Origin: Branchiostoma lanceolatum
Taxonomy: Eukaryota; Chordata; Leptocardii; Amphioxiformes; Branchiostomatidae
DNA length: 64,000 nt
NCBI RefSeq assembly: GCF_035083965.1
Contig: NC_089729.1
Location: 11,271,464-11,335,463, forward strand
Reading direction: 5' to 3'
In this document: positions 12,401 through 62,491 of the stretch, one piece after another
Layout of the letters: each line of letters begins with the position of its first letter
How positions within the stretch are numbered: the stretch's first letter is position 1
Position numbers and translations under genes: made by a program
Notes under the pieces: model-generated
The model's database searches: none
What the model saw: the letters and a program-made list of their open reading frames with translations, nothing else
Told to the model about the DNA's origin: nothing

Positions 12401-15400
12401 AATTCTGAATAGTAAAAACAGACCATTGTTCAAAGACATTCCAGTTTACACCTCTCATAAATTGAATGTACTAGTACATGTACATTTTGAGTCCTCGAAT
12501 GGTGGAGAATTTTTAGTCAACCTGCTAGTCAAACTTTATAACTAATTCTAGAATAGGTGACATATCGAAATTTTGATGTGAAAATTTCAATGTCAATGAA
12601 CAAATATGTCAAACGGAAGCCCTTTCATATAAACCAGAACTAAAAATTATTTTATTCCGGGGCTCTACGACTGGATTCTAATTTTTGGCAGGCAAAAAAA
12701 TTTTGAGCTTGACTGTCCTTTTTGTCGAGCTCTAAATTCTCAATTATGAAATCTACAGGCATGTCAAATAATTGATATCACTAGCACATGTTAACTCACC
12801 TAGTTCATATTTATTTTCCTTGTTTACCAATTCAATATACATGATTTGCATTCAGTTTCCTTTCCGCTTATATATTATGTTCATGTATTTATTTGACAGG
12901 ATCCGTCATATTTATTTTACTTATAGTATGTTTTCCTGTTCTTCTCAAAATCATATTGTTTTTGTTCATGTGAAATGCAATAAAAGGTTTTAAAAAACCT
13001 CACCTAGTTCAGACCTGGGTACATTCATTGGAGCCATCTCTGTCCACACATCAAATATAGGGTCGTACTTCCACATGTCCTTACTGGCTGAACCATCAGG
13101 GAACTCTCCTCCAGCCATGTACAACGTGTTGTTACCTTTAGTGGAAAAAGGATTCTTTTGCATCATTATCTTTTTACAAACATAGTACGTGCTCTTTGAT
13201 ATCTATAGACTACAACCTATAATAGTGATTATAACGGTTTTGCAATCCACACAAGTTGCTACTTCAAAAGTCTCTTCCAATGTTGTTTATTTTTTATTGA
13301 CAGTCAATTTAATGAACATAAAAGCCTTCCTTTATTATCTTGAAGAAGTTTCAGACTAGGTGCACCTATTCCCAAAAATATATTTCAAGCCTTGCAATGG
13401 TTACTGCACAGATGTGTCGATTTACAAAATGTAAAATGAGAAATTTCTACAGTCAGTTTCTCATGCAAATCAACAAAATGGGTTTACATGTTGGTTGCAA
13501 AGAACCATATTAGTGGCCTAAAAGAAAATATCAACAGAAGCATATAACATTTGAATTGTACAGAATAAATGAAATTAACAGATTATGACTACCACCAACC
13601 TGAAACAACCAGTCCGTGCTTGCTGACTGCAAACGGCAGACAGGCCAGTGTGCGCCACTGCCCCATGGTTGGGTCGTAACTTTCCACGCTTCGCAGAACA
13701 ACTTTGTCATCCTCACCTCCAACCGCGATGATGACTTCAACTGTGCCTGTGGGAAGAAAGAAAATGCTGTCAAGGTCATCAACAGAGAGGATAACAGACG
13801 CACCCGGTGGAGTAAGGAGGCGGTCTGGATAAGGAAGACACGGTGATGAACCGAGACGAGGGGGGATACAAACTTAGCCATATTTGGGACAGTGTTCTCA
13901 CCGCAAAAGCGCCACCTACATCGGCTACTTATAGTGGTGAGAAGCAGTACTCCAGTCAGAAGCTCTGAAGAAGGTGTCTGATAGACATCGAAACGTTAGC
14001 AGGTGAGATTGGTGTATAAAGAATCTCCCATATCCTATTTGCTACCTGATGAAATTATTTTTGGAAATGCTGTGTCCTTATGTTGCAAGATATGAAAATC
14101 AAAACACCACTTACCATTGGCAACTCTAACTTTTGACTTAAGTTTTCAGAAACTGCTTAGTACTGCTTGATTTTCGATTCAAAAGTTTGATACTGTATGC
14201 ATAATAAAAACTCAAATTATGGATTTTTTTGCACAGGCCATTTCACTGATATAGCAGATGCATTGAGGAAAACTCAAAATGCCTATCTGATGAATTAAGG
14301 CCACAACAATTTAATCATTCTGTAGTTTCTCAAATTAAAATGGGATACTGATCATGAACTGGAAGAAACATGTTTAGACTAAAGTAAAGGAGAGTCTACA
14401 CTGTTTGTTGTACAAAGTGGTGTAGACTTCCCTTTATTTTAGTCCCAAAGCTATTGCCCATGGGAGTATATTCTCTGTTTCTTAGCCTCTTCCCTTAAGT
14501 TTTCTTCAAATGAATTGGCATATGTATATCTTTACCCGCAATAAAAGTACATTGAATGTGACATCCAAGTGCATATTGTTATTCTTTCCACCATTACATT
14601 ATCTGTCCATACCTGTGGATCTCCTGGGGCGTGTACGAGGGCTGAACATCTCCCCCCTACGGTCCTCCAGCAACTGGTAGTTCTTCGCTTCTTCTAACAG
14701 GCGCCTACATGGTGGTGACTGTTGGATCACACTGTGGCTGTCCACACAGTCTAACAGGTGATACGGACTTAACAGGGGCAGTCGTACCTGCTCCAGCACC
14801 TGTGGGGTGGGGGGGGGGGGTTACATAAAGGTGTCTGTTGGATCACTTTGCTTTTCCACATCACACAGTGTAACAGATGATTAATAAGTCTTCTTCAAAT
14901 TAAATCAGTATCAATAATTACTGTTTTAAATACATTTATCTTTTTAAGACAAATAGTTTTATGACATTTGGAGAAAATATTGTCAATCAACAAGTTGTGA
15001 ATGTTTATATATGCCTCTCTTAAACTAATGGGGGAGCTAACCAACTTTTCATTCACAGATGAACAAATAATCTATAATCCTGTATAGTGAGAGTAGTGCC
15101 CCTTCATGCAGACCCATGGGGTGTGATGCATGATGGGAATGATTCCTATGGCCTCAGGCTCTTGAGTCTCCTGTTTAACCTTCTCCCTGCTGCCTTACCC
15201 CATAACCGGTACAGATTCAGTGCCAAACCACTACCTTTGCAGGCTGAAGGTTAAACATACACAAACATGATTAATACAAACCTTATGAAAGTCGTGTCTT
15301 CTTGACCCGGTATCTGCGTTCAACCAGCGAACGACTGCGTCAAAGACGTCCTCTTCTTTCTCCACGTTCAGTTTGTCGTCCGAGATGAACTCCACGACCT

Positions 15401-18936: not shown

Positions 18937-19811
18937 TCAAAAATTGTTCAGAAGCATGGCCATGTAGGGCATCGGGCTTTTCTTAAAGCGCTCTGTTCTT
19001 GTTCTGAAGGAGTCAAGCTGGTTGCTAGACCGTGTTTTTCGCCCGCTAATGTCACCCCTCCGAGGAGGGAACCAATGACGGTACTCGTGCGATTGGAGGA
19101 GTTTTCTGGCAAAAGCCAAGCACAGGTGGTCTCTCCGTAGCTCCAAAGTCTCAAGGCCAAGTAGAAGACAGGCATCTGCATATTGTGTGTAGTTTTTACC
19201 GAGGATGGTTCTCAAAGCGGCACGCGTTTGGATTTTCTCCAGCTGGTTACGTTGTGCTTGAGTGAGGCCCGGATGCCACGCTGGTACGGCATACTCGCAC
19301 ACCGGTCGGACGTAACTTGTGTAGATGGTGACTAAATCTTCTGTGGGCAGTCGGAATGCTTTCAATTTTCTAAGCAGAAACAGTCTCATGCCACCTTTCT
19401 TTACCATGTGGTCAACATGGGCGTTCCATCGCAGGTCTGCTTGCATGTACAGTCCCAACAACTTGGCCACTTTGACCTCCTGTAGGGGGTGAATATCTAT
19501 CTTGACTGTTGGTAAAGGTGGGACAGTTCTTGAGAAGTGTGGGTGCACCACCTTGCACTTTTTCGGATGGAGCTTCATTTTGTGAGTCGCAGACCAATTA
19601 TTCAGCTCATCTAGATCGTGTTGAATCGTAGAAGGTGCGTTTCTATGACGACTCTCGATCATATTCAGATCGTCGACGAACTTCCAACGGTTTGCCATCG
19701 CATTCTCAGCGGCGCACATTACCCTCTCGGTAATGTGGAATTGACTCTGCACATACTCTACTACAATGGCTCTCCACATCCTCTGATGAAATATTCCCCC
19801 CTTTTTTGACA
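18937..19811 (-). pseudogene. Non-LTR retrotransposon reverse transcriptase, 5'-truncated (CR1/Jockey-like)
   Basis: An open frame of about 290 codons has no convincing start. From about residue 39 it reads MANRWKFVDDLNMIES, where FVDD is the reverse transcriptase catalytic box. Then come LDELNNWSATHKMKLHPKKC and KVAKLLGLYMQADLRWNAHV, the thumb-side motif LG(L/V)...DLRWN.HV found in Jockey/CR1-type elements. After VRPVCEYAVPAWHPGLT the typical basic C-terminal end follows. The N-terminal 38 residues do not fit a reverse transcriptase, so the junction is the truncation point. Confidence 0.8.
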
Positions 19812-19903
19812 ACTACTACCATTTTCAGTGCTGGTGTGCTACGCTGAATGGTGGTTATCCAGCGTGACCCATTTAAATTCAGATTCTGCTTCAAATGTTT
19901 CAA

Positions 19904-22670: not shown

Positions 22671-23459
22671 TACGGAGACACGGACCTATTTCGATAATAA
22701 TTCGTGTGTGACGTAGTTAATATTTCTATTAATCAAAGTGATAAACATAGCGGTCTAGATTCATGTGACTTGAACGAACATCACAGTCGGTACTGAAAAT
22801 GCATACAGACAGATAAGATTTACATAGTGTACGTTTAGTTTTTTGTCACCCTTGTCATAGAAACAAAACCCCAGGCGGCACAATACACATCAAATTGGTG
22901 TTTGTTTTTACAACGGGCAAATGACTATTTCACAAAAGCACAGATTCATATCAACTCGTAGATCATAGACACAAATACAGAAGATCGTGAATAGTCGATG
23001 ATAAACTAACTACGCCGGTTATAGGGAGAATATTTGCTTACAAGTTGAACCCTCTCTCCGTAGGCGACTCCCTTAGCATACTATTCACCCTATTTGGCTA
23101 ATTTCTACTATTATCCCCAGTCATCCACGGGGCCTTGTAGAGGCTATGGCGATGACGTACGGTCCAGGTTTGGGGACAAGGTTTCGAATCCAAATCACAA
23201 GTATTTTATATACCTATGGAGCAGTGATGTGAAACAGGAACTGTTGGCTTTGTTTACAACTTGACTCAGGCTTTAGCTTAAACAAATGTGAGTCAAAATT
23301 GCACCAAGAGACGCCTCAATGTTTGCAATGAAAACACAAAGCAGGCAATGCTGGAGTTCTCCTTAACCAACGACTCCAACTCATACGACAATGTTTATAA
23401 GAGTGAAATAATAGCATTTTTTTTCAATACAACACACAATTTGCGTTGATGACAGTTAG

Positions 23460-24430
23460 ACATCCAGGTAGTAAGGTACGCCAAAAATAGTTACTCAAGT
23501 AACTGGATAAAATTTTGAAACAGTCAGACGTTTCAGACAGCATCCACTGTCTTTCGTCAGTGACTAACGATAGGACTGAGAACACCAGGTTTTATACCAA
23601 ACTCTGAATAGACCTGTTAATGAGGTTAAGACAATTTAGGATGTCTTGAAGTGGTCTTTAAAAGAAGATTAATTCAAGACAAAGTTTTGTGCCAATAGTT
23701 CAATTAGCTACTGTTGATTTTAGTACAGTAACTAAATGTTGTTCGTCCGGGGGTGGTGGGTGGTGGGTGGTGGGCAGTACATTATCCCAAGTGCCTGAAA
23801 GTTCAACGCGTAGACCCCCTTTCCTGTTGAGGGCGGGGTTGTACATCCTCTCATATATTGCTTCTCTAATTCCCCGTTCGAACCAGCGTTCTTCACGATC
23901 TAGGATGTCCGTGGATTCAAGATTGAATGAGTGTCCCTGGTTGTGTTTTAGATGGTGGAAAATGGCAGAGGAGTAGCGGTTAGCGCTCTTTCTGCAATGT
24001 TCCTTGTACCTTTCTCTTAGTGGTCGACTTGTCTCCCCAATGTACATGTTGTTGCAGTTCGGTTCCTCACATTTTAGTTTGTAGATGACATTGGCTTTGA
24101 TGCCTTTTTCAGGCCTGTCTTTTGGATGGACCAATTTCTGCCTGAGAGTTGAGTGAGGTTTGAAGTTAGTGGCAATGTTGAAGTTTTGGAAGATACGTCT
24201 GAGTTTTTCCGATACTCCTTGGACGTTACGGGAATGGTAATGTTGGCCATGTTTCTGTTGGTCAATGGTTTGCACTTGAGTGTTTTCTTAGACAGGTCAG
24301 AAGGTTTGAGGGCTTTGTTGAAGGTCCAATTTATCTTAAATGCATGCGCTATCGTTTGGCGCCAGTATTTTAGACTTTCCCGATTATGTAGACACGTAAC
24401 AGGGGTTTACACAATGAGTTATTTTTAATT
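23460..24430 (-). mobile_element. Penelope-like element, family A, GIY-YIG region and 3' end
   Basis: The minus-strand frame 24275-23700 has no ATG start, so it is 5'-truncated. It reads VQGVSEKLRRIFQNFNIATN, STLRQKLVHPKD, KLKCEEPNCNNMYIGETSRP, LRERYKEH and LESTDILDREERWFERGIRE. These are the linker and the GIY-YIG endonuclease (NMYIGET, an Arg helix, His and the DRE..WF.R..REA box) of Penelope-like retroelements. Upstream the frame shifts near 24225 (KPLTNRNMANITIP is in the other frame), so the copy is inactive. The 3' tail carries a hammerhead motif and the phrase ACTTGAGTAACTATTTTTGG, seen again at 59815. Confidence 0.85.
23527..23560 (-). ncRNA. Minimal hammerhead ribozyme motif, full core
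   Basis: Minus strand: GTCA then CTGACGA, stem II AGACAG/CTGTCT with loop TGGATG, then GAAACGTC and TGAC. GTCA and TGAC pair as a 4-bp stem I. All catalytic core positions of the hammerhead consensus (CUGANGA, GAA) are present. Confidence 0.68.
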
Positions 24431-36690: not shown

Positions 36691-39600
36691 ATGTGCGTTT
36701 GTCTGTGTGTGTGTGTGTATGTGTGTGTGTGCGCGCGCGCGCGCGCGCGCGCGTGTACATGTGTTTGTTGGTAACGAAGATACTAAAGAACGGCTTGATG
36801 GATTGGTTGCATATTGATTGTGTTTGTAGGCTGTGACAAAAGCTGGAAACAGTTTGATTTTAGGCTCTCTGACGGCTTTCCATGGTACTGGAGCGAAACT
36901 TCTGGTTTTGATATATCCAATACTCCCTCTGTGGAGACGCCCTAACCGGTGTCAAGTCCTACCCCCATCTCCCACAATTGAGATCTTCCGGGCCAGGCTG
37001 GAGGCCTCCCCGCCCTAGCCTGGGGCCTCCCCCTACTTTGCCTCTAATGGGGTTATCTCGGGGTTTAGCAAATTGAAGTTAAGGTTGATATCTCGTGTTC
37101 TGGACCACCTTTTCTTGGTGCCAGATAGCTTTTGATGTTAGGAAAAGTGGTGGCCGCCTAACAACTTTTTCAGGAACTGCATGGGCGTCTTCGTAAATAT
37201 CTTTGGATAACCCAAGAAGGAATTAAGTGATCGTCGTTATTTTTGTATGAAGGTAGCTTAAGTGATGAATGACGTAATAACATGACAATAATGCAACTCA
37301 GGGTCTAATTTGCATAATTAATCATGAAATTTTGGTACATCAAAAATGCATCAAAGCCAATGTCATCTAATTTCTGAAATGTGGGTAACCGAATTGCAAT
37401 AACATGTATATTGGGGAGACCAGTCGACCACTAAGACAAAGGTACAATGAACATTGCAGAAAGAGCGCTAACGGCTGCTCCTCTGCCATTTTCACAATCT
37501 AAAACACAACACAATTTCGAATCCACGGACATCCTAGATCGTGAATCCCGCTGGTTCAAACGGGGAGTTAGAGAAGCAATATATGAGAGAATGTACAGTC
37601 CCACCCTCAACAGGAAAGGGGGTCTACGCGTTGAACTTTCAGGCACTTTGGGATAATGCACTGCCCACCACCCCCATCCCCCGACGAACAACATGTAGTT
37701 ACTGTACTAAAACAGCAGTAGCTAATTGAACTATTAGCGTACCTTATTTGGAGAATCAATGAGAATCATTTATAAACGTCATTATTTTTACATCAGGCAT
37801 AATACTTACAGCAGGCTTGGAAAAGGTAGATACCACATTCATTCATAAGAGTAGAAAGAAGAAGAGATCTAGCAGATATTGATTTTGATTTGTCTTGAGC
37901 TTTATTGATTTGATTATATGGATGACATCCGCGCATGTATGCGAGGATCAATTTTTCATCTGCCCCCCCCCCCACAAGAAAGTCGGTATACTGTAAATCA
38001 TACAACATACAAAGCAAAACATATACGGTATAAACCTGTAAATCATACAAAGCATCTGAAAATGAGAAAATATTTGCTGTGAATTTGAAAAAAAAATATT
38101 TAAGATAAAACGAATACTATTATCGTCGAATGCAAAGTCAATTCCAAAGTCATAGAAGAAGATGTGCAAGAACAAAAATGAGGAATTTATCATTTGGTAT
38201 ACCATACTCTGTGTTTTAAGTTTTGTTCAACCTTCCTGACTACGTAGATTTCATAATGAAGGCAGCTTTGTTTTCAAACTTTTTTTTATTAGCTCGCAAG
38301 CATCAGTTTTGGGGTTCCCAGAGGATGTCATCCATACAATCAAATCAACATGGCCCTACTTTAAGTTTCGGTTTGGTTTTTCTCTTTCCCCGTCACGTCT
38401 ACATGACTCTATTGAGTTAATTCTGTGTATGTACTAAACATCTTACACACCACTATTTATGCATTATCAGTTTTGCTTGGAACTGTATTTATTATCATTA
38501 TTATTGATTACTGATATATATTTGAATTGAATCTCTGTACTATGTGCACTATCATTTTATTTACCTCTTTTCATTTATTTACTATTCATGCTACATTTGA
38601 TTTGTTTGGACTCTCTGTACTATTTTTATTATTACGTTTTCTTTCTGTTTGTGTCTTATAAGCCCATATATGGGCTGGGTGGCGTGAAGTCGCAAGAAAC
38701 ATAAATGAAATTTTCATTTATTCATTCATATAATTATACGTCACTCGAAAAAGAATAACATCATTTTGCGAAGGTACGAGGTATTCGAACTCTTGTTTGA
38801 CATGTTTTATCGGTCACCTGATGGCGTTTATTTCCTCTTCAGATGGTTCCGATAGACAGACCAGGCTATTTGGTTTTCATGGATGCGTTTCCGTTGACTT
38901 CGACACAATGCAAGGTTGGTAGTCATTCATTAAAAAAGTGACATTTGAACACTGTTGCTACCTCCATGAAATGTCATGCAGGTTAGATTTTCAGTAGCAT
39001 TTGTCTGTCCGTCTGTTGGTCAACAAGATAAGTGAAGAACGGCCGGGTGGATTGGTTTCATATTTGGTGTGATGATAGGGTCTGGTACTCTCCAAGCAGA
39101 GCATGGGATTCGGCTGTTTTTTGACGTGTTAGGTTGGTTATACAAAAAAAAAAAGATGACAAAGTAGAAAGCCCGACAAAAACGCCTCAAAACACGTCAA
39201 AAACCAGCCGAATCCCATGCTCTGCTTGGAGAGTAAGGTTCTGGCAAAAACTGGAAATGATAAGATTTTTGGCTCTCTAGCGGCTTCCCTAAGTACTGCA
39301 GCGGAACTTCCGTTTATGCTATCACGTGTTCTTGGCATGCTATGGTCACGATTTACGGGCGGTAGATAGCCCTCGAGCTCCGAGAGAAGTCACATAAGTT
39401 TGGGTCCCCTAGCGACGAGTTCCGGAACTGCAGGGGCGTTTTTTAAATTTGTTTCCCATGACTTCAATTAATGTAACACAAGTAAGCAAGGGCAGCTGGA
39501 ACATAAACATATAGCAACCATGCAGATGAGGAGTTGATTTACATAATTAGAGCAAAAATGGTAGAACTTATCGCTTAGTGATAAATGATGGAAATTTTAT

Positions 39601-44892: not shown

Positions 44893-45251
44893 TGCGTTCG
44901 CCGGCGCGAGTAGAACGAACGCTGCCCAAACTTAAGCTTTCGGCACCAACATCTTGTTGTGTTCCCTTAAAAAAACACGCTTTTTCAAAGACGGTCCAGA
45001 CCTGTGCGTTTTACGGCGACTCGGCGCTGCACGGTTAAGATTACAAACCTCAATCCCAAAATGTTGAGGAGACAACTCGCGGAGGGTCGTTCTGAGGCAC
45101 CTTGCACTGGTTTGTCTATACGTTTTCGCCGCCTGACATGTTTGTCGACATTACTGCAGTTTCTTACAAAGTCGCTAGGTATGGGTTGGCGCTTCAAAGA
45201 ACCCGCCGGGCACTGCTTAAATGCAACGTAGACAGAAGCTAGCAAACTTTA

Positions 45252-48083: not shown

Positions 48084-51000
48084 GCAATTTTGCAGCCTCT
48101 TAGAGATTCTGTTAAATCGATATCTTTTCTGGCCACGCGTACAACAAACAAGAGGCTAGACACGAAGATATGTAAAATCAAGAAGATAGTGTCCTAGGAT
48201 TCCGAGGTCAAACAAGGGCATGTAGTAGATTTTGAACCTTTCATCTTACAGAAGTGTTACTTTGTTTGCAAACGTTGCTAAGGTATGGCGGTCTCAATGA
48301 AGAGAGAAACTTGGAAAGCTTATGTTTAGAGATTATGTCGGCACTTTCCTCTCGGATTCTGTTTTATTTGCGAGGATTTTGTATACAGTACATATTGTCC
48401 TGCTAATTCTGCTACCCAGTTATTACGTCCACAAAGGAGATAACGTTTAAAGTGGATGGTCCCAGGCATAGATAGGTGTGTGTCAGTTTCAAACATGTCA
48501 GTCCAAAGTGTTAGTGTGTTATAACAAACGGAACTATGAGATCGCCGGCAAATTGATGGATAGCTTATGCCCCGGTGCCTGTTGGGGGTGTGGCCCCGGC
48601 TGGGCCCCGAAGCCACAAATCTGTCCCGATGGACTGCTAGCTAGATACCAAGGGGTACCTCTCGGTATTAGCTTACGACGTCTATTTGTTACCGGGTCCA
48701 GGGTTGATTTTAACTCGCCATTTTTCTCGAGGATTCTGTTTTATCTAGTACTAGGATTTTGTGTATAGTTCATATTGTCCTGCTTATTCTCCTATCCAAC
48801 TTTGAACTACGCCAAAGAAATTACGCTTGGAATAACACCTTAAATTATATGCTCCCATAGATAGCTTCCAATGTGTCTCACCTGTAAAGTCATATCAAAT
48901 TTACAAACGTTACTATGAGAGCGTGAGCCTAGGGTGACACAGCTTATACTATGTCTCAGAAATTGTGCCGACACTATTCCCTATGGGAGTTAGTTTTCTC
49001 AGTAAGACTTTTGTATAAAGTCGACATTATCCTCACGCTGCAGCTATTACTCTCATTAAAGAGTTCATTAACAGTTTGAAACCTTCCTTGTCACGCAAGT
49101 ACCAAGGCTTACCACCCGGCAATAGTGGGTACGTTTGTCTTTGCGCTATACCGCAACAAAGAGAAGTAGCAACAATACAGACAACAGGTGTTTCCTTTGT
49201 ATTATACAGTACAGTACAGAACTAGCTGCAGTGTGTAACATTTGTGTGTCATTTTTGGGGCCAAACAATGTTTAAAAGGTACCCCTACGTATTGCCACAC
49301 ACCGTTAAGTGTGGTTGTACCCCAGGGCATTGGGGTATATCCTCTATTTGGCCTTGAATAGAGAACACGCTAACATTACAATGCCTTAATGTACCTTAAA
49401 CTATCGAGTGGGGTTGCATTAAAAAGTAGGCTAAAACAGAAAGGTGAAATTAATAAAATGCTCGAGATCTTGTTTCCAAGAATAAAACAGAGTACACACA
49501 AGAGAATAGAAAACACGCTAACATTAAAAAAGACAGGGAAGATACCTTAAAGTATCGAGTAAAAACAGAAAGGTAAAATTACACAAATTACACGAACTCT
49601 TGTTTCTGAAACTATAACAGAGTAAACTAGCTATTCAAACAACATTCTCCCGTCCTTTCCGACCCTAACACAGTGTTGTGAAAAATTGTTTCCAACGGAC
49701 AAACACTTGTTATTTTCTCTACCAATTGTAAACGCAGCTGGTACGAATGTAGCATTTAGGCAAGATAAAAATCTCTGCTGATGACACAGGCTTATTGTCA
49801 AGAGAATCCCCCTGTATTACCGCTGCGATACAGTTTATATACACACAGGACGAACACAGTATCGATTAACTGTTCTAACCTGGCTCTCATGGAATCTTTA
49901 GGTTCCAAACAACATTACGTAGGCGTACGTTAAGTACTGACGTTCAGCACTGAGGGTGGGCCAGGTTTTTGACAAAACAGACGGCCAAATGTTTGGGGTT
50001 GGTCGGCATAAACCCTTTTAATTGCATATACATGTACATGTATGTGTCTTCTAGAAAATTTCATGTTTGTGGTGTTGGCCAACTAGGAGCAAAATTCGGA
50101 AATGCTTGAAAGTACGTCTATGTGTCCGATCATTTTCGACATCTTTATTATAAATGAAGCTAACTGTTATAGTATTACGAAATCCGAAATTTTCATTATT
50201 TGTATTTCACCTTCGAGTACTTGCGTGTCACACTGAGAAGCTACACAAATCCTCAGCGAATGGCGCTTTAATGAATACGTAAAAACAATCTTTTAAAGCT
50301 TTTAAATGTTTTTACATTCACATGCAGCATACAATTTCTTCTCATGACCGCTCCATTGTCAACCCAAGAATACTCGTATATCTACAATATACAAATACGT
50401 TTGCATTGGCATTAAAATCTTCTGGATTGTTGCCTCGATGAAAAATGAGGGAATAGTTTTCACTCTGAATGGTGTATGGGGATATATTCCAAGAACCGCC
50501 GGTAATTTGGTAGGTGGGTAGGTGAGGAGAACTCGACAGTAAAGGTCGATTGTTGGCCTTCTGGTGGTTGACCTTGGTACTGCAGCGGCATTTTTGTAAT
50601 TATCTTTTTTCATCTGTTTTCATCGTTCTCTCCCCGTCTCCAGGCGCTCCAGTTACTGCGGAAGTTCCGCCGGGCCGCACGAGTCGTCCTGGCGTGTGTT
50701 CATCTCAACAGGCTGTGTCAGGCGGTACAGCGGTGAGAGGGGCAGAAATAGATCCATAGATCGATATTTATGTACATGTAGTCTTGTTGGTTAGGGTTGT
50801 TGACTTAGAATCTAAAGGTTCTTGGGTCCGACCAGTAATTCTCACCTGCTGACGTTTCGGTGTCTGTCAGACACCTTCTTCAGAGCTTTTGACTGGAGTA
50901 CTGCTTCTCGCCCCTATAAGTATCCGAAGTAGGTGCTTTTGCGGTGAGAACACATGTACAATCCCAAACGTGGCTAAGTATGTATCCCCCCTCGTCCCGG

Positions 51001-54000
51001 TTCATCATTGGTGTTGACTTCGTTGTCCAGACGTCTTTCACCACCAGATATCTATATTGTCCTCTCTGTCGATTACCTTGGCCCCCTCCCAGTCTATGAC
51101 GCAGTTGTGTCTAGCAATGTATGACTGCAGACCTCTTCTTTTTGTGTGTGTCATTTCTGGGATCCAGTCCTTAGCCCCAATAATATTTTTCATGTGAAAA
51201 GCACATATTTCTTCACTCGACTCAGTTGAACATGAGTACTTAGCTTAGGGACGTCCTATTGGATGGAACGTAAAGCTGGAGGTCCCGTGTTTTAGAAGAG
51301 CCTCGTCTAAAGAACCCACCACACACATCGAAAAGAGAAGGGTTCCTTCCCGGTGTGAGTGGATCAAACTCATCAATCGGATTTACGCAGCCCGTGCCTA
51401 CTATACACAACTGGTGTATTGTTCCCAAATGAACAAAGAATCAAAATCTGTATCCATTGATTGAATGTTTGGGTAATTTTACCCATAATGTTACGCAAAA
51501 AAGAAATGACAACAGGGCGATGTTACGTGCCAGTGATTCGTCGACTTCAACGACAATACTTAAGTACTCATCAATCTCCCTTGTCAACTTAAGCCGTAAC
51601 CAGAAGTCGTCGACAAAGTCACGTATTAACTTACACCGTGACTTGTTTCCGGTCTTTAAACTTCTTAAGAGGTTGAACTTTTGCATGGGGGTTTTTCGAC
51701 TTCGTTCTGCCACTCAGCCGTTTGGAACACGACTCTAATCGTCCTAACAAGACGTCACATTCTCCCTCCTTTGGACGACTTAAGACCGTGGTTAAGTTCT
51801 CCTTAACTGAGAAACAGTCAGGTACCTGCTTAAACTACTTAAGCGACCAGTCATGCCACTTTGTCTTATAGACTGATCGACAAGCTCATTTCACAAAGTA
51901 ACGGAGTCAGGTGAAACATGACTAGTTAAGAATATCGCAGGTCCGGGTTCAAGTCTTGGCTACAGTCCAAATTTTGAACACTGAAGGGTGATTACATACT
52001 CGTGTTTCATACATCCGACGTTTTTTTGTTACAACCCATAGAATGATTACTTGGTCAATTTATATATATATGTATATATACGTGTAGCTAGTTTATTTGC
52101 GATGCAAGTGAAGAAGCCAAACAACAATAAACGTGTCCGTCCATGTGCCCAGTCAATCATACTAACCGATCAGTGCTGAAAGTTTGATTCCTCAGATGTC
52201 CATTTGGAATGTTTGAGTGAGCAAAGCAATGTTGAGACGGTAAAACATGGGGATTATGAAGGAAGAAAAATGGACTTGTTGCGAACAAATTCAAGGATTA
52301 TGTGCTTTAGGAAACTTCTTCACTGCCATCGTGGATGTCAACATTTGGCGTGTGTGCCATTTCGGACGACACAATCATTCCACAGCTGCCAAGCAACGCC
52401 ATGATAGTTTTTGTCATTGATGCATAGTGTAGAACAAATGTCTGTTCTTTCCTTTGCAAAGAATCGAAAGTTCCTTACAACATTGATTACAACATACATA
52501 TGTTCAAGGTTTAAATTCTTGATTCCCAAGGTTTGGCCAGGACGTGATATTTGTTGAAACGCGTTGGTTGTTGTTGAAAGTGACCTTTGCGATCGATTTG
52601 ACATTGAAGTGATTTCAAGATGGCGGTTTTGGTTATCGACCCCTTATCAGGGTATTTCATAGTGTAGCTTTGATCGTTTAACCGTAACGGTAAACTAAAC
52701 GTCACCTAACAATCGACCAAGCACGAACGAGCAGTTAAAATGTAAAGTCGGGTAAGTGCACAGCATTTTAGACCTCCTTTAGCAAGCTGTACTTGTCGGG
52801 CTTTCTTGAGTCTTATCCTGTGCTTTTTTCTGAGGGTATATTAGTTCTGATTTTGTACTTATTTGCGCCGGTGCCCGTAGGAGGTGTAGTCCCGGTCTGG
52901 CTCTGAAGCCACAAATTTGTCCTGACAGACGATTAGCTGACGGCGTCTGTTTGTCACAGGGTCCCGGGTTTATTTTAACTCCGAGTGCCAAAAAAAAAAC
53001 CCGAAAGCCTTTTTCCAAGTGTGACCAAAGCATTCGAGGTATAACAGCATGTGAAGAAGAACAAAAATTGATAGCTCGCACCAAGAGGTTTCGATATTTG
53101 TTGTAACCATAAACCACCGCACTAGCATACACAGGCATCGCAGTACCGGTGTTATTTGACAAAAATCACCAACTTTATTTCTCCCTACAGAATAAAGGAC
53201 AATGAGGCCGACACCGTCAGCTATCTCCCGTCGTCCTTCGCGCGCGGTGGAATGGACAACTTCACAGGAGTGGACAACCTCATGTTCAACAAGGCCGACT
53301 ACAAGGCGGACAGGGACGTAAGGAAAACATCATTGCTTTGAATATAGATTTACTCTGATAGAATAAAAGACAGTCCATTTCAAGAATGTGACAGTGATGC
53401 CTTCACAAACACCAGTAAAGCCCTTGTCCAACAGTCGACGAACTTTGGCCGTATTTGTAGATCGTCAGAAGGGTGCTGAATTATAGAATCAGCAAAGAAT
53501 GAGTATCTTTTTTCCCCTGAAAATCTACTCCATCACATTTAAGGGGGCTCGCTGACCTGCGAGCATCGGTCGATATTTAATGATCACGCGATTATCGAGA
53601 GAACACCGCCGAAATTGTCGCTAAGAGCTCGCGCACAAGCTTGTCGGACAACCGACTTATCTACTGTGTGACAGGGGCTTTAAACATGGGGTCTAAAGAC
53701 CGTCAAACACTATAGCACAAACAAATCAGTTCTTTGATTTCTTAAACTGGTTTTGATGAAGAACATTACAAACTTTGCTGTACTGAGCACATGATGCATT
53801 TTTTGCCGTCTCCCTTTGCTGATACATGATCTAGTAACTGTTCGTTCTACAACTAGAGCAGCATGTTGGGTAAGCACAGATGGCTAGCAAGTAAGCTTTA
53901 ATTTGCGTAATAATGACACAAAACACACAAGGCATATTGTTTTGTAGTCGTAAACGATTTGCCAAGTCATTCTAAAGGTTTTAACGAATTTAACAACAAA

Positions 54001-57000
54001 ACACCTTATTGTGAAGAAAAAAAAAGATTGCGAAACATCACCAGGCTCGTAACAGAAAATCCTTTGGCTTACTACCTGAAGGACTTCTGACAAAAAGATC
54101 TTGTGAACGTAACGCTCGATTTCTTTCAGCTCTCTCATTGTCAGAAAGAGGCTAGTGAAACACCCGAGGTCTTGTAACAAGGTATTTAGGGAATATAAAC
54201 CAGATTACCGACAAAGAGATTCATGGCTATAATACTAAGGACGTTGTCATACGGTCGTTGACCTAAGTGTTGAAGTGAAGAATATTCCAAACACAGAATG
54301 TGAGAGAACGTGATTTCAACGCGTTTTCGTCCGTCTGAAATCTTTTCGCCCAGCACTGAGCAGTGAAACAAACCGAAGAGAAGACTCCTTTTGCCAGGTC
54401 TGACGTTCTAGTGACGCTGAAGATGAGTGATGGATGTCACTCAAAACGTCCGGACGTAATCTTCGAATTTTATCCAGTACTGTTGTAGAGATTGAATTGT
54501 CTATAGATAATGTTTACCTGGATGTCTAACCTTCATCAACGTATAAAGAACAGAAAACTGGCCGCAATCATGTCAGTTGCAATTGGACGACGTAAAATAA
54601 GCTACTCCTTAGGGTCAAGGATCTAAATAAATGACTTTCAACACGTTAGAACAGATGTGAAACGTGATTCCACCGCGTTTTCTTCACTTTTACATCTTTC
54701 CGCCCAATAGACAGCGAAGAGAACCCGAGGTGTGAAAGACAGATCACGTTCAGATCGAGCGTTCCGTGTCAGGGGTTCGGTATGAGCCCTTTGTATTGAC
54801 AAGAAAACCCTCTCAGTTGTAACCAAACATGTTCCGTAAACATGTGTGACGATGGGGGATTGTTCAACGCAGGTGGGGCGAGGAGATGACTGTCACTGTG
54901 TCCTACTTTCTATAGACGAAGGCTGTTACATAGTCTGTACTGTACACAACGATGTTTTAATCTCTTACAGATATTGGTACAGACTGCCTTCTCGGCTTAA
55001 AGCCCCCCTCTCACCGGACCCGCGGCACGCTGGCGGCGTCGCTGCGTCCTAAACTGGATTTGTGTTACCTTTGACTTTATAATGGGAATATCATTCAAAA
55101 CGTACAAGTATGACCAAAATGACAACAAAACACACATTCGTTTTTTTTGTCGATAGAATTCGTTGAGTGCACGTGCTTTGTCAATTCGATCGGCGCAGCG
55201 ACGCCGCCAGCGTGTCGCGGGTCCAGTGAGAGGGGGGCACTTATGAGAAGGAGTGTGGTAGATTAAACAAAGACCACTACCAGCGAACTAGCCTCTTCAT
55301 GTGGTGCTTGCACTGTAAATGCGTGGCCCAAGTGGGGGGGGGGCTTGAACTTTTAGAATATTGAGAGAGAAAGGCTGTACTACAGACACTGGTTGCATGA
55401 AAGAAACAAACAAGAATATTATTTAGACGATGGAAAACGTACAGGATGTAAAATAATATTAATCAAAAGGCAAAAACCAACGTACAAGCATTGAGAAAGA
55501 AGGCTATATCATAAACACAGCCCATTTTGATATCAATATGTGACAGCTGGATATTTGGACGCTAAGTCCTCTTTGTTTAAACAAATCACACATTCAACGC
55601 AGGTGTGATTCAAATGTGCGAAACGTCACAAATTAAACGTAAAGGGACACTCAAGCCTTACTTGGCGGCTTCTACACGACTGACAATGGAATCATTCATT
55701 CATTCATGCAATCGTTGATTGACTGATTCATTCTTTCCCGTTCCCAGAGCCTCCGTCTGTCGGAGATGTCCCGGGCGGTGCTGATGTCCCCGCCGGCCGA
55801 CAGGACAGGCGAACAGATAGATCATGTGAGGATTTTTGTTTTTCTTTTCTTCCCTAAGCCCCTCTCTCACTCGACCCGCGGCACGCTGGCGGCGTCGCTG
55901 CGGTCGATCGAATTGACAAAGCGCTCAACGAGTTCCATCGACAAAAAAAACACGATTTTTTTAAGCTTTGTGTGTTTTGTTGTCTTTTTGGTCATACTTG
56001 TACGTTTTGAATGATATTCCCATTATAAAGTTAAGGGTAACAGAAATCCAGTTTAGTACGCAGCGCCTCCGCCAGCGTGCCGCGGGTCCGGTGAGAGGGG
56101 GGCTTTAGTCCAAGCAAATGCTTCAATTCTGCAAATTGATTTGACCGATTTCAAAACATGTCTTGTTCTTCCTGTTCTCGATCCAACACCACAGGTTCAC
56201 TGAATGACGTCAACACGTGGTTTCACTGCCTAATTATAAGTTTTCAATGTCCCTTTAGTGATGTTATATAACGTTAATGATGATAGCACACTAGCAGTTA
56301 CGTCATATGTACCACTACTAAGATAGTCGTGTCCTAAAGGGTATCATTTTAATGACGTCAAATACTATGTGAAAACACAAAGCATTGCCAAGAACGACCT
56401 ATCATTGTAAATCTCTAATTCACAACTGTTTCAATATGTTGAAGTTTATTTCATTGAATAAAGTTTGGGAAAGAAAACAAAAACACTGTCCCTTTGTTCT
56501 GTACAGGTGCTCGTGGAGTTGCGGAGGTTCAAGACGTTCAGTCAGAACCCAATCAGCATGCAGAAGACATTCTGCAAGTTCGGCTTCTATCAGAGGTTTG
56601 TCATCATCTTTAAGTGACGCTAGCAGTATTGAAAGCAGTGTCTTGCAGTTTCTGCATTAAACAACCTCATATATTTCCCTCCCCTAGATCCAAACACTGT
56701 AAAACACCGCACCCTAGCTGTATTAGGGGGAGCCGTCTGCTTCAGGCACGGTCTGCTTCAGGCACGGCATCTTGTATTTAATGGACACAAGGACATCCCA
56801 ACAGGCTTATATACATATTGAAATACTTGCGGAAAAACTACGTATACTGTAAAAACAGTAAAATTGAACCCTATAACAAACTAAAGTCAAACTGACTACA
56901 TTGTTTGCCGGCTACGCAACCCCTAAAAAAAACTTCCATGACGAAGACCAAAAAAATTGAGCCCAATGCAAACAATCTCTCCTCTGGGATTTCTTAAATT

Positions 57001-60000
57001 CGAAACCAAATTTTTCTCCTGAGGTTGCTCGTGCCTGGTAGCAAGGCCTAGAATGAAGACCCTCGGTCCTCCTTATGTCCTCTCCCAGCAGATGCTCTCC
57101 ACCTGTGTACAACTCAAACACACAATGGTTAATGCAGAAAGTGAATTTCACGCAATGACTTCGTCAAACGCTAACATGCATGTAACTGTTTTAAGTCTTA
57201 GGTACGTAATGCAGCGTCTTCGTTTTCATACAAACAGGCTCTGTTTATGTAGTATTACTCACTAATGTTGCGAAATTTAGTATCGACAGTTTCTTTATTT
57301 TGAATCGCTGCAGTTACGGACCAAAGCGCGCCATTGTGAGACAGGGGCAGATATCTCGCCTGTTTTACGTCATCATTTCCGGCTCAGGTGAGTAACAACT
57401 GGGAAAACTACGTCATTTCCGGCTCAGGTTAGATACAGTCGGGAAAATACGTCATCGTAAAGAATATATGTCACCATAGGCCCAATCGTCTTGTTTTGAG
57501 TCCTACAATAGGCTGAAGTGAAAGTTGTTTTCAAAGACGAATTAACGACTGGTTGTTTGTTTTTGTAAAAATGCTAAAGAACAATTGGACAGTACAAACA
57601 AGTAAGACTACCGTAGCAAAATACCTCTCTGTTTTTCATTAAAAGTGGTGTCGTATTCGAATTGATCACGTCCCTTTGTGAGATCGCGAATCAGCCAAAC
57701 ACGAGAATAGAAAATAACTTAGCTGAGACTGATCGGGTCAAAACAGCACCAGATGATATACATCCATGCTTTTATCTGTTTTTCGTTTTGTCAAATTCAA
57801 AGTAAGATCAGGACTAGTATGAGATTGATTATGAATCGTGTTCTGTGCTATTTTTCTGTATAAAACGTAGAAACAGCATTAGCTTTTGGCTCTTTAAAAA
57901 TGCAAAACCTTCCCCCGTATCATAAATGAAGATTGCTTAATATTCATTTTTGGGTTCCCCAGCTATAGTTACGACCTGGGACGCTGACACTCACATGCTC
58001 ACCGTCCAGGAACTCAGGAGGCCCGGCGACACTTTCGGGGTGAGCTCCGTCTGCTGTGACTCTCTTGAACCACCTCAAGCGTTATGGCCTTCGCTACCTG
58101 TATTGTTTTTATCTTGTGTGTCTGTCTGTTTGTGAGTCTGTCCGTCATTCAGTGCGTCTGTCTGTCTGTTTGTTTGTGTGTCTATGTGTGTGTGTCTGTT
58201 TGTTTGTTTGTGTGCCTGTGTATGTGTCTGTGTGCGTGTCTGTGAGTCTTTCTGTCTCTCTTTGTCTCTGTATGTATGTATGCATGTTTGTATGTATATG
58301 AATGTATGTATGTATGTATGTATGTATGTATGTATGTATATATGTATCTTTGCGCGTGAGTGTGTGCGTGCGTCTGTGTGTTTGTGTGTCTTTCTCTTTG
58401 CCGCTGCATGTTGTCTGTACATATGGAACTAAAGCATTATTAGTGAAATCCGCCATATCTGACTGCCTCGTTTTCATCAGGATTGTCAGTTTACGATTGG
58501 GCCTTGGTAAGGCAGAACCCTTGCGTCTTCTGTGCGAACTGCAGTTGATTTTGCCGTCGAAAACCTTTCCAGGAGCTGACAAGCACCGCCTTTCGCAAGA
58601 AACGACAGACGTCAATCATTTCTCGGGCCGACATTGAGTTGCTGTCAATCAGCGCCGAGGTGGGTGGGGCCTCTTGTCTATCTACTGTAAATGCAGTGGT
58701 TTTTGCGGTGAACTTTCAGCGCAAGCTTAAAACCGCCGCGAAACCTTTTGCTCACCTACGACTGTAGCGCTACTATTGTTTCAAACGCGAACTTTAAACC
58801 ACCGCAAACACTCCATTTTCTCCCTACCGCGAAATAAGAGCCACGCGAACTTAAATGCATTTACAGCATTACAATGTAGTTGACTCCAGATATATCTGTC
58901 CGGAGTGTCCGCACTTTTCGCCATGCAGATACCATGACAAACAAAGTTGGCTGTCATGACCAAACGATCAGATAGACGGCGTTGCTGCACTGAGCAATTC
59001 TAAGCGGGTGGCAACCTGTTCAGTAGTAATCTCTTCTTGCCAGGACAGCCTTAGTAACTAGCATGTCATTGGTCAACAAGTAGGTTTTTTTTGGGGGGGG
59101 AGGTGTCGTGAAGACTAGACTTACTCCTTGCGAAGACGATTACGTCTATTGGCCAAGCAGTACGCATTTAAGGCTTCGATATACTCGTGAAATCAGACGA
59201 GAGAATGTGAAAAGTTCATGTCAAATAAGGACAGTTTACTGACGACGCACAAGTCTATAAAGATTTTGCAAGCCCGTTCTGGAGGGTTTTATTTTCGCTC
59301 ATCGTGGAAAACTAATCTTTTTTTTGGTGTTTCACTTGTAGGTCTGGTTTTCCAATCTTTTGACGAAAATTGTCGCCTGATCGATGACGTCTATTCAATG
59401 TTACAAACGTTCTCAGCAGGCTGGCACAACTTAAGATCATTTTTGTGGTCAGCACTGATTCTATCATGAGAAATCTGAAGTACCTACTCAGCCAGTCGTT
59501 CAGAGATATTAAATAGAATGTTGTCAGACGCAACATATGAACACTTGCCCTTCAAAGTCTGTGGGTGTAATTTTCTTGTAACGATTGTCATATAAGCCAC
59601 ACAACGAAGACTGTTGTTGGCGGAAACATGATAAATTGCATCTTGATAAGGAGATCACATAACATGATATATCTGGCACGAGTTTCTTGGTCAGCGTTGA
59701 TCTAATCGGGAGTCAGATGTTACGATAACCACTGTCATTTATGTATAGCCTCCTTCGCAGACTTCCTATAACGGCGGCGTATATATGCTGGGAGGGGAGG
59801 GGGACAAGGTTATCTAATACGCCAAAAATAATTACTCAAGCAACTGGATAAGATTTCTCGAGTAATTATTTTTGGCGTATCTTATTACCTGGATGTCTAA
59901 CCTTCATCAACGTATCAAGGTTATCTAATGCCGATAAGGGAGTTGTGTAGCCAAGGGAGTTGTGTAGCCGAGGGACGACCGCAACTTGGATACTGTAAAT

Positions 60001-62491
60001 ATGCATTTAAGTTCACGTGGTTATTATTTCGCGCTGAGGCGAAAATGAAGTGCTCGCGGTGATTTTAAGCTCGCGGCAGCGTTATGTACAGTCCCATATT
60101 ACTACAGCATTGAACAAAAAATGTTCGCGATGGTTTTAGGTTCGCGGTGAAACGGTCGCGAACATTTCTACATTTACAGTAATTGTTGTTTGAGGTTTGC
60201 ACGTACAGATGCGGAATGACATATCTGGAATTATTTGAAATCATTTTCTTGATCAGCGTTGATAGTATCGTGAGAAAATTATACGTTAAGATAATGACTG
60301 TCCTAAACGTATCAGCCGCACAATGAGTACAAAGAGCCCGTTGTCAGGCTCACCACGGAAAATTGTCCCGTGTAGGCGTCTTAAGTGGGACAGGTTAGAG
60401 AACAGGTGTTTGTCCTCCGACCGTGTGACGACACCCTGACACTTTGACAGCTCGCTTTTTGTGTTCGTTTAACACCGTGTTATAACCTACATTCTTCTAT
60501 CTCATGAGACAGTCGTTTTGACACCTTGGGAATCGTCTGTGTCACTTTAAGTATAACCTGTGTTAACAAGTCGAAATGAGGCATAGCGAGGGCAACTGTT
60601 TGGAACTATTCTGTAGTAAGCGATTAGCGATGACTATCGTTATAATAACCTTTGGGAGATACTACGGTGGGTAGTCTGCTAGTGGACAGGTCGACTTTGT
60701 GATCAGCGTGGTTTAGTATGCCTTGTTACATCCATGAGGTTATATTTTCAGTAGGTGTTTGCCTGTCTGTCTGTCTGTCTGACTGTCAACAAGCTAGATA
60801 ACTCAACAACGACTGGATGGATTGGTTTCATATTTGGTGTGTTGGTAGGGTGTGACGAAAACGGCAATGATCAGATTTGGGGTCCCCTGCCGACTTTCCT
60901 TGGTACTGCAGCGGAACTTCCGGTTTTGATATATCTTGCCGCCACCACCTTAAAACGACAAAAATCTTCTCCTCTCCCTTTGTTTTATCTGTTAGGTAGA
61001 CCGACTCGCACATAAATGTTCTGTTCAAATAACTTTTTTACGTTCACAACACGTCCGAGTAAAATTCAAAACATACTGTATTGCACACACGGCTTGCTGA
61101 ATCGAATAGAAGAATAAGTTCTTTGCACTATCTTTTGACATCGTACTCGTAATCCTTACAAATTTTGGAAATAGATGTTAGGAAAACGGTGTAACAGAAG
61201 CATAAACTATGCGCAGATTATGTCTAAAATCCTCGAAAAAACTTGACTTGCAGAGTTGGAAATTTGGGTCCGAACGTTATGTGCTACAATTTTAAGAATT
61301 TTGTTCTCTTACCATTGCGGAACCTTAAACTATCCGTGAATAATTTCATCAGGTTGGCGAATCACTGAATAGCAATTGCAAGGTTCTTTTATTCACAACC
61401 AAGTATTCTAAAAGAGCCGACATTTGGATGACTGTCTGTCATCTTCATCAGGGCAATACTGACTGGTTCACAGTGCACTGAAGCTAGGTGTTACTGCTAA
61501 CAATGCAGCCCCAAACTTGTTGCTAACCAAACAGTATCTATTAATGTAAAAATACTTTACGTTTGGAACTGCATTGTTAGCATTAACACCTAGCTTCAGT
61601 GCACTGTGAACCAGTCAGTATTGCCCTGATGAAGATGACAGACAGTCATCGAAACGTCGACTCTTGTAAACTATTTGGTTGTGAATAAAAGAACCTTGCT
61701 ATTCAGTCATCTAAACTATCCTTGCCAACCGTTTGCACCAACAACGTTCTGCTCCCTGAAAACCCACACAGAGGAAGCCAAACGTAACAGCAACAAGGTC
61801 TTTAAAAAGGGCAGACTTGGTTACGGACATAAATCCTGAAGTCGTTTTAAAAACAACACGCGGAGATTTGAATGACCCATTCTTACATTTCATCGCAATA
61901 TCACAACACGTTGGTGGTCTTTGTTGTGCATAAAAACGTATCTCAGAAACATATACGCCAACATGTTATCAAATATCACAATACGGTTACGATATACCTT
62001 CTAAGATTTCGTTTAATATTGAATACAATATAGGGATATTGATACTTGCTTGGTCTGCAGCGGTTGGGTTGCCTAGCAACAGCGATGAAACGCTTCGCTC
62101 CGCCCCCTGACAATGAATGGACGGGTCCGAGCGGTATGAATGGACGTCCGGTTGCAGTCGGGCTAGCGTGAATACGGCCGGGGTAGGAGATTACCTGGCC
62201 GCTCGGGCCGCATTACCGATGTAGTGTTTAACTAGTCACGGGCTCGGCCGTGGGTTCTACTACAGCGTAGCAGACAGCTATAGCTGTGTATATGGGTGTA
62301 TTTTCTCTCTCGCTACGCTAACTAGAAGTAGCGTTAAATCTGTGTGAGATAATTTGCGTGCAAACTAACGTAGCGCTGATGGAGTCTTGGCGGCTGTCCC
62401 GTGTACAGGACCTGGTGGACCGGGCCACCAGAATGCCGCCGGAGAACACGGTGGTCAGCGCCGGAGACTTCGTCAAGAGCCCCTTCCTCAG
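47558..62491 (+). CDS. CNBD2-like: Cyclic nucleotide-binding domain protein, CNBD2-like; continues to the right
   Basis: Exons 47558-47938, 50644-50732, 53191-53317, 55748-55825, 56507-56595, 57314-57387, 57963-58039, 58573-58659 and probably 62409-62491. All GT-AG, phases agree. Residues 1-127 are a basic, probably disordered tail. Exon 2 reads LRKFRRAARVVLACVHLNRL, as in CNBD2. Exons 4-5 (MSPPADRTGEQIDHVLVELR, RFKTFSQNP) match the helical lead-in, exons 6-8 the cNMP beta-roll: AIVRQGQ, LFYVIISGSA, PGDTFGELTS and RKKRQTSII, keeping the Gly-Glu and Arg of the phosphate cassette. Human CNBD2 is a sperm protein that binds cAMP. The first ATG in frame after an upstream stop is 47558; no ATG lies between. 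Exon 9 begins ED..., ends DFVKSPFL and has the spacing of CNBD2 after its beta-roll, but it could also begin another transcript (ATG 62379). Confidence 0.82.
48011..48081 (+). repeat. (CT)n microsatellite
   Basis: Nearly pure CT tract in the first CNBD2-like intron, about 70 bp after the donor. Confidence 0.97.
48340..49110. repeat. Three diverged copies of a GATTCTGTTTTAT...CATATTGTCCTGC unit
   Basis: Copies near 48340, 48717 and 48985 share GAGGATT..GTATA.AGT.CATATTGTCCTGCT and following words. Between the first two lies GGTGTGGCCCCGGCTGGGCC...GAAGCCACAAAT, repeated at about 52866-52990. Confidence 0.5.
49356..49626 (+). repeat. Tandem duplication of about 140 bp
   Basis: AGAACACGCTAACATTA, TACCTTAAACTATCGAGT, ACAGAAAGGTGAAATTA and AACAGAGTA recur in order in the second half. 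Confidence 0.6.
50500..50643 (+). repeat. Modular repeat remnant beside an exon
   Basis: CTTGGTACTGCAGCGGCATTT lies about 70 bp before the exon 2 acceptor of the CNBD2-like gene. Confidence 0.45.
50845..51200 (-). mobile_element. Penelope-like element, family B, 3' end
   Basis: The minus strand reads QSYIARHNCVIDWEGAKVID then REDN, the terminal endonuclease segment of Penelope elements, with frame loss after it. A non-coding tail with a hammerhead motif follows. Closely similar to 13765-14010. Confidence 0.75.
50851..50883 (-). ncRNA. Minimal hammerhead ribozyme motif, full core
   Basis: Minus strand: GCT, CTGAAGA, stem II GGTGTCT/AGACACC with loop GAC, GAAACGTC, AGC. GCT and AGC pair as stem I. 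Core complete. Confidence 0.65.
54417..54450 (+). ncRNA. Degenerate hammerhead motif
   Basis: CTGAAGA, stem II GAGTGA..TCACTC, then AAAACGTC. The first residue of GAAA is A, a core change expected to abolish cleavage. The tail shares TTTTATCCAGTA and ACCTGGATGTCTAACCTTC with the Penelope tails at 23460 and 59880. Confidence 0.5.
55002..55238. mobile_element. MITE with long GC-rich inverted repeats, copy 1
   Basis: GCCCCCCTCTCACCGGACCC...GCACGCTGGCGGCGTCGCTGCG at the left mirrors CGCAGCGACGCCGCCAGCGT...GGGTCCAGTGAGAGGGGGGC at the right. Arms of about 45 bp, total about 237 bp, in a CNBD2-like intron. Confidence 0.88.
55858..56103. mobile_element. MITE with long GC-rich inverted repeats, copy 2, inverted
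   Basis: Same arms as copy 1. The interior (TGGTCATACTTGTACGTTTTG...CCCATTATAAAGTTA) is the reverse complement of that in copy 1. It begins only about 30 bp after the donor of exon 4. Confidence 0.88.
58108..58400 (+). repeat. (TGTC)n, (TG)n and (ATGT)n microsatellite block
   Basis: Runs from TCTGTCTG through TGTGTGT into TATGTATG. It lies in the intron after 58039. Confidence 0.95.
58683..58867. mobile_element. MITE, ACTGTAAATGC family, copy 1
   Basis: Left TACTGTAAATGCAGTGGTTTTTGCGG, right CCGCGAAATAAGAGCC...GCATTTACAG. Starts 24 bp after a CNBD2-like donor. Confidence 0.65.
59815..59905. repeat. Fold-back of a Penelope tail phrase
   Basis: ACGCCAAAAATAATTACTCAAG is mirrored by CTCGAGTAATTATTTTTGGCG around a loop of about 20 bp, then ACCTGGATGTCTAACCTTC, as in the Penelope tails at 23460 and 54520. 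Confidence 0.65.
59991..60182. mobile_element. MITE, ACTGTAAATGC family, copy 2
   Basis: Left TACTGTAAATATGCATTTAA, right GCGAACATTTCTACATTTAC then AGTA. Interior words GTTCGCG and CGCGGTG recur as in copy 1. Confidence 0.65.
60733..60950 (+). repeat. Modular repeat fragment, 5' part
   Basis: TATATTTTCAGTAGGTGTTT, GTCTGTCTGTC, GATGGATTGGTTTCATATTT, GGTACTGCAGCGGAACTTCC. Same order as at 38970-39310. Confidence 0.6.
61419..61451 (-). ncRNA. Hammerhead motif, degenerate partner
   Basis: Minus strand CTGATGA, stem II GATGAC/GTCATC, then CAAATGTC in place of GAAACGTC. Two core changes. Confidence 0.5.
61626..61658 (+). ncRNA. Minimal hammerhead ribozyme motif, conserved core
   Basis: CTGATGA, stem II GATGAC/GTCATC with loop AGACA, GAAACGTC. 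The core is canonical; stem I next to it has only one clear pair (C-G). Confidence 0.6.
62068..62080 (+). promoter_or_regulatory. X-box (RFX site), palindromic
   Basis: GTTGCCTAGCAAC fits the RFX consensus GTNRCC-N-RGYAAC on both strands. It stands in a CpG-rich stretch (62060-62340) 300 bp upstream of the exon at 62379-62491. RFX factors switch on ciliary and flagellar genes. Confidence 0.65.

Follow-up and report, generated by a model that had tools for sequence, protein, structure and literature searches.

Why should one stretch of Branchiostoma lanceolatum DNA hold six short motifs with the core of a hammerhead ribozyme, and from what do they derive? The window, by which we mean the whole 64,000-nucleotide (nt) stretch analysed (contig NC_089729.1 of assembly GCF_035083965.1, positions 11,271,464 to 11,335,463, forward strand), had been annotated from its letters alone as carrying at least six minimal hammerheads of the Penelope type. 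The observation is real and well above chance, and we regard it as highly probable that Penelope-like elements (PLEs) are the source of the motifs, which are minimal type I hammerheads lying in at least five dead insertions (A–E), each at a junction between PLE units. Ribozymes of this kind are already published, reportedly by Cervera and de la Pena in 2014 and by Lunse, Weinberg and Breaker in 2017; what the window adds is how ribozyme, codons and copying site stand to one another in separate insertions. The six motifs are listed below as core, extra nucleotide, stem II, loop, stem II' and GAAACGTH.

13965-13997, + strand: hammerhead A, CTGAAGA, a, GGTGTCT gat AGACATC, GAAACGTT; perfect core
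50883-50851, − strand: hammerhead B, CTGAAGA, a, GGTGTCT gac AGACACC, GAAACGTC; perfect core
23560-23527, − strand: hammerhead C, CTGACGA, a, AGACAGT ggat GCTGTCT, GAAACGTC; perfect core
61626-61658, + strand: hammerhead D2, CTGATGA, a, GATGAC agaca GTCATC, GAAACGTC; perfect core and stem II
54417-54450, + strand: hammerhead E, one mismatch, AAAACGTC (G12 position, G to A)
61451-61419, − strand: hammerhead D1, two mismatches in the core/stem III part, CAAATGTC

A scan of the whole window with a minimal descriptor (CTGANGA core, zero or one extra nt, stem II of at least 5 bp, GAAACGTH), a check that the initial annotation had itself proposed, recovered these six motifs with up to two mismatches, and no others, at the positions claimed. 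Its division into four motifs with a full core and a 6–7-bp stem II (A, B, C and D2) and two degenerate ones (E and D1) also held. Across 200 order-1 Markov versions of the window, perfect motifs numbered 0 (four observed), one-mismatch motifs 0.03 per window (one observed) and two-mismatch motifs 0.24 per window (one observed). Matches with three mismatches at 41168(+), 61352(−) and 32775(−) were set aside as chance (3 against 1.9 expected); the one at 61352(−) overlaps the tail of D1.

The CUGANGA...GAAA core is perfect in four of the six, with one change in E and two changes within GAAACGTC in D1, and ACGT is kept in five (A, B, C, D2 and E), D1 having ATGT. An extra nucleotide between CTGANGA and stem II, present in all six motifs (A in five, T in E), had gone unmentioned in the initial annotation; a descriptor that allows no nucleotide there finds no motif in the window. 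An extra nucleotide in a viroid hammerhead core is, to judge from the title, the topic of work by De la Pena and Flores.

Covariation between families, the second part of the original claim, stands for stem II but is not shown for stem I, which is identical in A and B and almost absent in D2 and E. When six stem II positions were listed by hand for the six motifs, 36 of 36 cells were standard pairs (one of them G-T), and two-sided changes between families occurred at all six positions, the six rows including two close pairs (A/B and D1/D2). Stems were counted from this hand list because in the MAFFT alignment C and E are one column out of register at stem II. Stem II is 6 or 7 bp in all four perfect motifs, whereas among the matches listed (at least 125) to the pattern CTGANGAAN{15,18}GAAACGTC in viral contigs, stem II reached at least 5 bp in 2 of 125 and at least 6 bp in 1 of 125.

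The surroundings of the motifs tie them to PLEs. Seven copies or insertions were delimited, two of them (D and F) being pairs of pseudo-long terminal repeats (pLTRs):

13771..14064, + strand: copy A, 5'-truncated PLE insertion with a GIY-YIG C-terminal remnant, hammerhead and the tailed beginning of the next unit
50789..51170, − strand: copy B, PLE endonuclease remnant and hammerhead, family of A; outer limits approximate
23444..24287, − strand: copy C, GIY-YIG frame, hammerhead, the next unit's N-terminal frame and a tail ending near 23444
61336..61711, no single strand: insertion D, two PLE pLTRs, head-to-head inverted
54417..54541, + strand: copy E, degenerate hammerhead, following N-terminal frame and tail
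59819..59915, no single strand: insertion F, a short pair of inverted pLTRs belonging to the C/E family, one arm tailed
37342..37750, + strand: copy G, C-family PLE endonuclease remnant that lacks the ribozyme stretch; right limit approximate

These families form two groups, A/B/D and C/E/F/G, with two motifs in D. A, B and D are related at the nucleotide level, so that the motifs represent about two independent groups (A/B/D and C/E) rather than one per motif.

Penelope coding remnants had been reported near 13765, 50845 and 23460, and the analysis supports PLE remnants at A, B and C. Upstream of hammerheads A and B, frames carry MNRDEGGY.LSH.WD, which we take to be a typical PLE endonuclease C-terminus, and this remnant adjoins both ribozymes. 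The joined remnant of A matches the C-terminal part of C's protein (BLASTP E 0.001 in a single comparison, 16 of 46 residues identical). Hammerhead C lies downstream of a 195-aa frame (23703-24287) with a GIY-YIG match (Pfam PF01541, E 5.7e-4) whose 20.6 bits fall below the curated cut-off of 22.6. Copy G is 86% identical to 23691-24109; the descriptor scan found no motif in it.

In D and F, inverted pLTRs with a single tail stand between likely target-site duplications (TSDs). The arms of D are 92.3% identical over 143 bp and inverted, the left one carrying a tail about 25 nt beyond the other, and the 10-bp TSD TAAACTATCC occupies 61326-61335 and 61712-61721, a repeat found in 0.003 of shuffled flanks. 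F has a 14-bp TSD (CAAGGTTATCTAAT, 59805-59818 and 59916-59929), is truncated downstream of the ribozyme position and hence lacks the ribozyme, and shares a 27-nt tail stretch identical to E; the tail of C is common to E and F.

Copy A has a candidate TSD of 9 bp (AAATGCTGT, 13762-13770 and 14065-14073). A 9-mer of this type is shared in 0.0055 of shuffled 50x50 flanks, a figure for a repeat picked after being seen, and a second shared 9-mer lies nearby (ATGAAATTA, 13569 and 14049), which shows that 9-bp repeats arise by chance over that range. It is therefore the match of edges, not repeat length, that carries the TSD argument: the left edge of A (13771) is exactly where its similarity to B begins. 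B is 80.6% identical to A over 248 aligned columns, and it is through this likeness to A that its GIY-YIG assignment is made; its similarity to D extends down to 50789.

Two side observations concern D and E. An Rfam MIR8742 match at 61455-61621, on both strands, reaches 65 bits where the gathering score is 130 and most likely stems from the inverted pLTR pair D, not from a microRNA gene. Copy E is flanked by a direct repeat (54293-54376 and 54651-54728, 74% identical) that leaves the ribozyme motif outside it.

Could the motifs instead belong to metazoan retrozymes, small non-autonomous type I hammerhead elements that move as RNA circles of 170–400 nt? In length, A (294 bp) and D (376 bp) would suit retrozymes, which share the type I hammerhead core and coexist with PLEs (PMC7229834). 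Yet retrozymes occur as direct tandem copies and mostly possess helix III and loop contacts, the amphibian ones lacking a clear helix III (PMC7229834). No direct tandem repeat of 170–400 bp was found at any motif, no direct tandems were seen among the copies in the window, and D and F are inverted. The motifs lack helix III, which most invertebrate retrozymes form (PMC7761336), and PLE endonuclease coding remnants lie upstream of A, B and C. On this evidence we consider a retrozyme origin very improbable, and read the copies as PLE insertions in what follows.

The position of the ribozyme relative to the reading frames differs between the two groups. In A, the upstream PLE frame stops at a TGA (13966-13968) inside the CTGANGA core, and the frame of B likewise ends at the core TGA, which corresponds to U4-G5-A6; the endonuclease frame runs 25 (A) and 26 (B) codons beyond WD to reach it. 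Between A and B, 39 codons of this frame differ by seven synonymous and five non-synonymous changes (pN/pS 0.19, Fisher P 0.0027), in a test of one pair of copies with gaps placed by hand and chosen after the frame had been seen. Between the VL that follows the endonuclease and the stop codon, differences at the three codon positions number 0, 1 and 5 (P 0.018); further upstream, A and B are separated by indels of lengths not divisible by three. A stop codon inside a PLE hammerhead is not described in the titles and abstract openings searched, including that of PMC6431247; the key 2014 and 2017 papers lay outside this set, so we make no claim that it is unpublished.

In C and E, the codon is a start. 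An ATG in loop II of C (first base 23543) opens the frame MLSETSDCFKILSS, and one in loop II of E (54434) opens the following frame. Translated, GAA-ACG-TC gives E-T-S in C and K-T-S in E, with ...ILSS... further along the frame. The frame is open to the element's end in C. Between C and F, the downstream frame shows four synonymous and three non-synonymous changes (Fisher P 0.036).

Such overlaps raise a second alternative, namely that the motifs are chance matches, or that the protein code (E-T-S, the stop codon) keeps the core without any ribozyme function. GAAACGTC does read E-T-S in frame in B, C and D2, and CTGA holds the stop in A and B, so that coding could keep part of the core. Against this, stem II stays fully paired through changes in both its sequence and the residues it encodes, and the Markov versions produced no perfect motif. 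In addition, the motif of Poseidon of Anolis carolinensis (PAc) cleaves in the presence of protein, and C3G or G8C abolishes this (PMC11167929). We give chance or coding slightly less credence than retrozymes, which is to say very little.

If the motifs are PLE hammerheads at unit junctions, where did copying begin? The predicted cut of A falls after 13997, a U17 site. Six insertion 3' ends could be placed, those of A, D1, D2 and F from TSDs and those of C and E, perhaps a few bases off, from where the tail shared with F stops; this set leaves out B, whose end was not placeable. Tailed ends lie 67 (A), 83 (C), 83 (D1) and 91 (E) nt past the predicted cut and tailless ones 53 (D2) and about 49 nt (the F arm, in C-equivalent coordinates). 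Thus, all six lie 49–91 nt beyond the cut and none at it, which implies that the copied RNAs were uncut at this ribozyme, an implication limited to this ribozyme and not extending to others in the same transcript.

PAc offers the closest comparison. Its reverse transcription starts 111–118 bp into the open reading frame (ORF) and its cut site lies 26 bp in, placing the start of reverse transcription 85–92 nt past the cut (PMC11167929), against 83–91 nt for the 3' ends of C, D1 and E. Ribozyme mutants leave PAc insertion in vitro unaffected, and cutting needs protein (PMC11167929). The PAc ORF begins inside its ribozyme (PMC11167929), as in C and E, so overlap with a start codon was already known. 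From the published spacing, the PAc start codon would be in frame with GAA-ACG, again as in C and E. The distances would also correspond: in PAc the ORF starts where stem II does, 26 nt before the cut, and in A, B and D2 the extra A likewise precedes the cut by 26 nt. Unlike PAc, A, B and D lack an ATG within the ribozyme that is in frame and precedes GAA-ACG, and the core of A and B holds an upstream stop codon.

These relations suggest a sequence of events that we offer conditionally. In a live tandem array, on our own reading of the literature, the self-complementary ACGU in stem III would bring two ribozymes together, which would then cut after GUC or GUU and separate the units, perhaps with the help of PLE protein. 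In the tandem transcript, the ribozyme would divide stop from start: the upstream ORF would end at the TGA of CTGANGA (A/B), or the downstream ORF begin at the loop II ATG (C/E), where the frame is open and translation is presumed. Judging from PAc, reverse transcription would have started inside the next unit, about 100 nt beyond the ATG (C and E), or about 66 nt where the tail is missing, leaving the ribozyme near the 3' end of the copy. The PLE hammerhead may then be a two-sided ORF-junction device, with a stop in the core or a start in loop II, that cuts tandem transcripts into single-ORF messages and does not make the template of reverse transcription, copying using RNA uncleaved at the last junction; we put this forward tentatively and think it rather less than even in likelihood, by a clear distance.

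The role of minimal PLE hammerheads has been termed still a mystery (PMC7761336). In the window, the relation of ribozyme, stop, start and start of reverse transcription is visible in several separate copies from two family groups, and it means that template-making and message-separating roles can be told apart by a survey of insertion ends in any PLE-rich genome.

A number of results weigh against the PLE hammerhead reading or parts of it, the second 9-mer near A and the sub-threshold GIY-YIG score of C among them. Stem I is weak across motifs: A and B have 3 + 3 bp around a 3x3 loop, C 6 bp, D1 3 bp and E 2 bp. D2 forms 1 bp and then meets a C-A mismatch at the second pair; the motif at 61626(+), annotated as full, is thus intact in core and stem II but damaged in stem I. 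D1, its inverted partner, keeps a GCC/GGC stem I and has a changed GAAACGTC. With 60-nt flanks, predicted stem I occupancy is at most 0.03 in all six motifs and predicted stem II occupancy in B only 0.17; with 12-nt flanks, the hammerhead is the minimum-energy fold for A and not for the other five. Cofold energies favour other inter-strand pairings and are uninformative on active dimers.

Rfam hammerhead models are built with helix III, and an Rfam match is for that reason not counted as defining the minimal kind. The search with these models, also proposed in the initial annotation, gave no match in the whole window (E up to 5) or in the A and C stretches searched alone (E up to 10), motifs B, D1, D2 and E being covered by the whole-window search only; taken literally, this is the outcome that the annotation had named as refuting its claim. 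We discount this null because published PLE hammerheads lack helix III (PMC6155905, PMC7761336); the models were run without a positive control.

On the side of the elements, TSD searches at B and at C and E gave none. Pfam returned no endonuclease match to the A or B remnants, one frame of A giving only an unrelated Vps3844_C match (E 0.049). The frame after the ribozyme stops 9 codons on in A and 17 in B, counted from and including the glutamate codon of E-T-S, and the loop II frame of copy E meets a stop before the element's end. Among 15 frames tested, a subset of the window's frames, none was recognisable as a PLE reverse transcriptase, the copies being 5'-truncated remnants. A single RVT_1 match (18940-19812, E 1.7e-4), below its cut-off and away from any motif, is accompanied by an ALKBH8_N match; we take it to be probably a long interspersed nuclear element.

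Relatives outside the window were not found in the viral and prokaryotic collections. The endonuclease protein yielded none among 37 pattern matches in viral contigs and none among 89 in prokaryotic genome contigs, the ribozyme pattern none in viral contigs and the tail pattern none in prokaryotic genome contigs. Two viral-contig matches to the tail pattern were dismissed, with no hammerhead nearby, and the best hit of a PDB search (E 0.93) was not meaningful.

Compared with known systems, the motifs resemble published minimal PLE hammerheads in type I layout, lack of a real helix III, pLTR location and expected dimeric action (PMC7761336), a comparison made by description and not letter for letter. 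Many metazoan genomes carry thousands of minimal type I motifs (PMC7761336), and Acropora millepora over 6000 type I motifs, minimal or canonical (PMC7229834). Minimal PLE hammerheads are expected to act as dimers (PMC7761336), whereas the window copies are single or inverted. The window holds no direct tandem among the six motifs, and dimeric cleavage in cis is therefore unavailable to these copies; being single or inverted, they are best seen as fossils in which efficient cis cleavage is improbable.

PLEs of Adineta vaga have head-to-head inverted pLTRs, TSDs of 8–10 bp and, on one arm, a 31-bp tail that may be absent (PMC3846280). D and F share this layout, with one arm tailed, but consist of the inverted pLTR pair alone with no ORF between, and the TSD of F is longer, at 14 bp. 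The word 'hammerhead' does not occur in the text of PMC3846280.

A KLHL-like gene, with Kelch and BTB/BACK coding stretches at 12993-16016(−), lies next to copy A, which is antisense to it and a few bases from what appears by eye to be the acceptor side of an exon. That the motifs are domesticated host ribozymes, for example on the transcript of this gene beside copy A, is the least probable of the alternatives and close to negligible, since the antisense orientation leaves the gene transcript with the complement of the ribozyme, and the flanking repeats and decayed frames resemble ordinary insertions.

Other repeats and genes in the window were recorded in passing. The longest repeat pair in self-comparison (21132-22345 and 45249-46619, about 1.2 kb each) aligns in two blocks at 93–94% identity and is itself internally repetitive, with repeats of about 150 bp. 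A possibly intact 473-aa open frame at 4230-5651(−) matches DDE_Tnp_1_7 (E 1.5e-50) and is presumably a piggyBac-type transposase. Three tRNA genes lie within 400 bp at 43315-43847 (Gln-CTG +, Met-CAT + and Gln-TTG −) in related repeats; the Met-CAT call has a larger middle part and may be a tRNA-Gln-derived gene with an insertion. A tandem array at 41514-42249, with units of 55, 110 and 165 bp, is open for at least 180 aa in all six frames. Finally, nested palindromic or inverted repeats at 54980-55257 and 55858-56114, 85% identical between blocks, possibly represent a foldback element.
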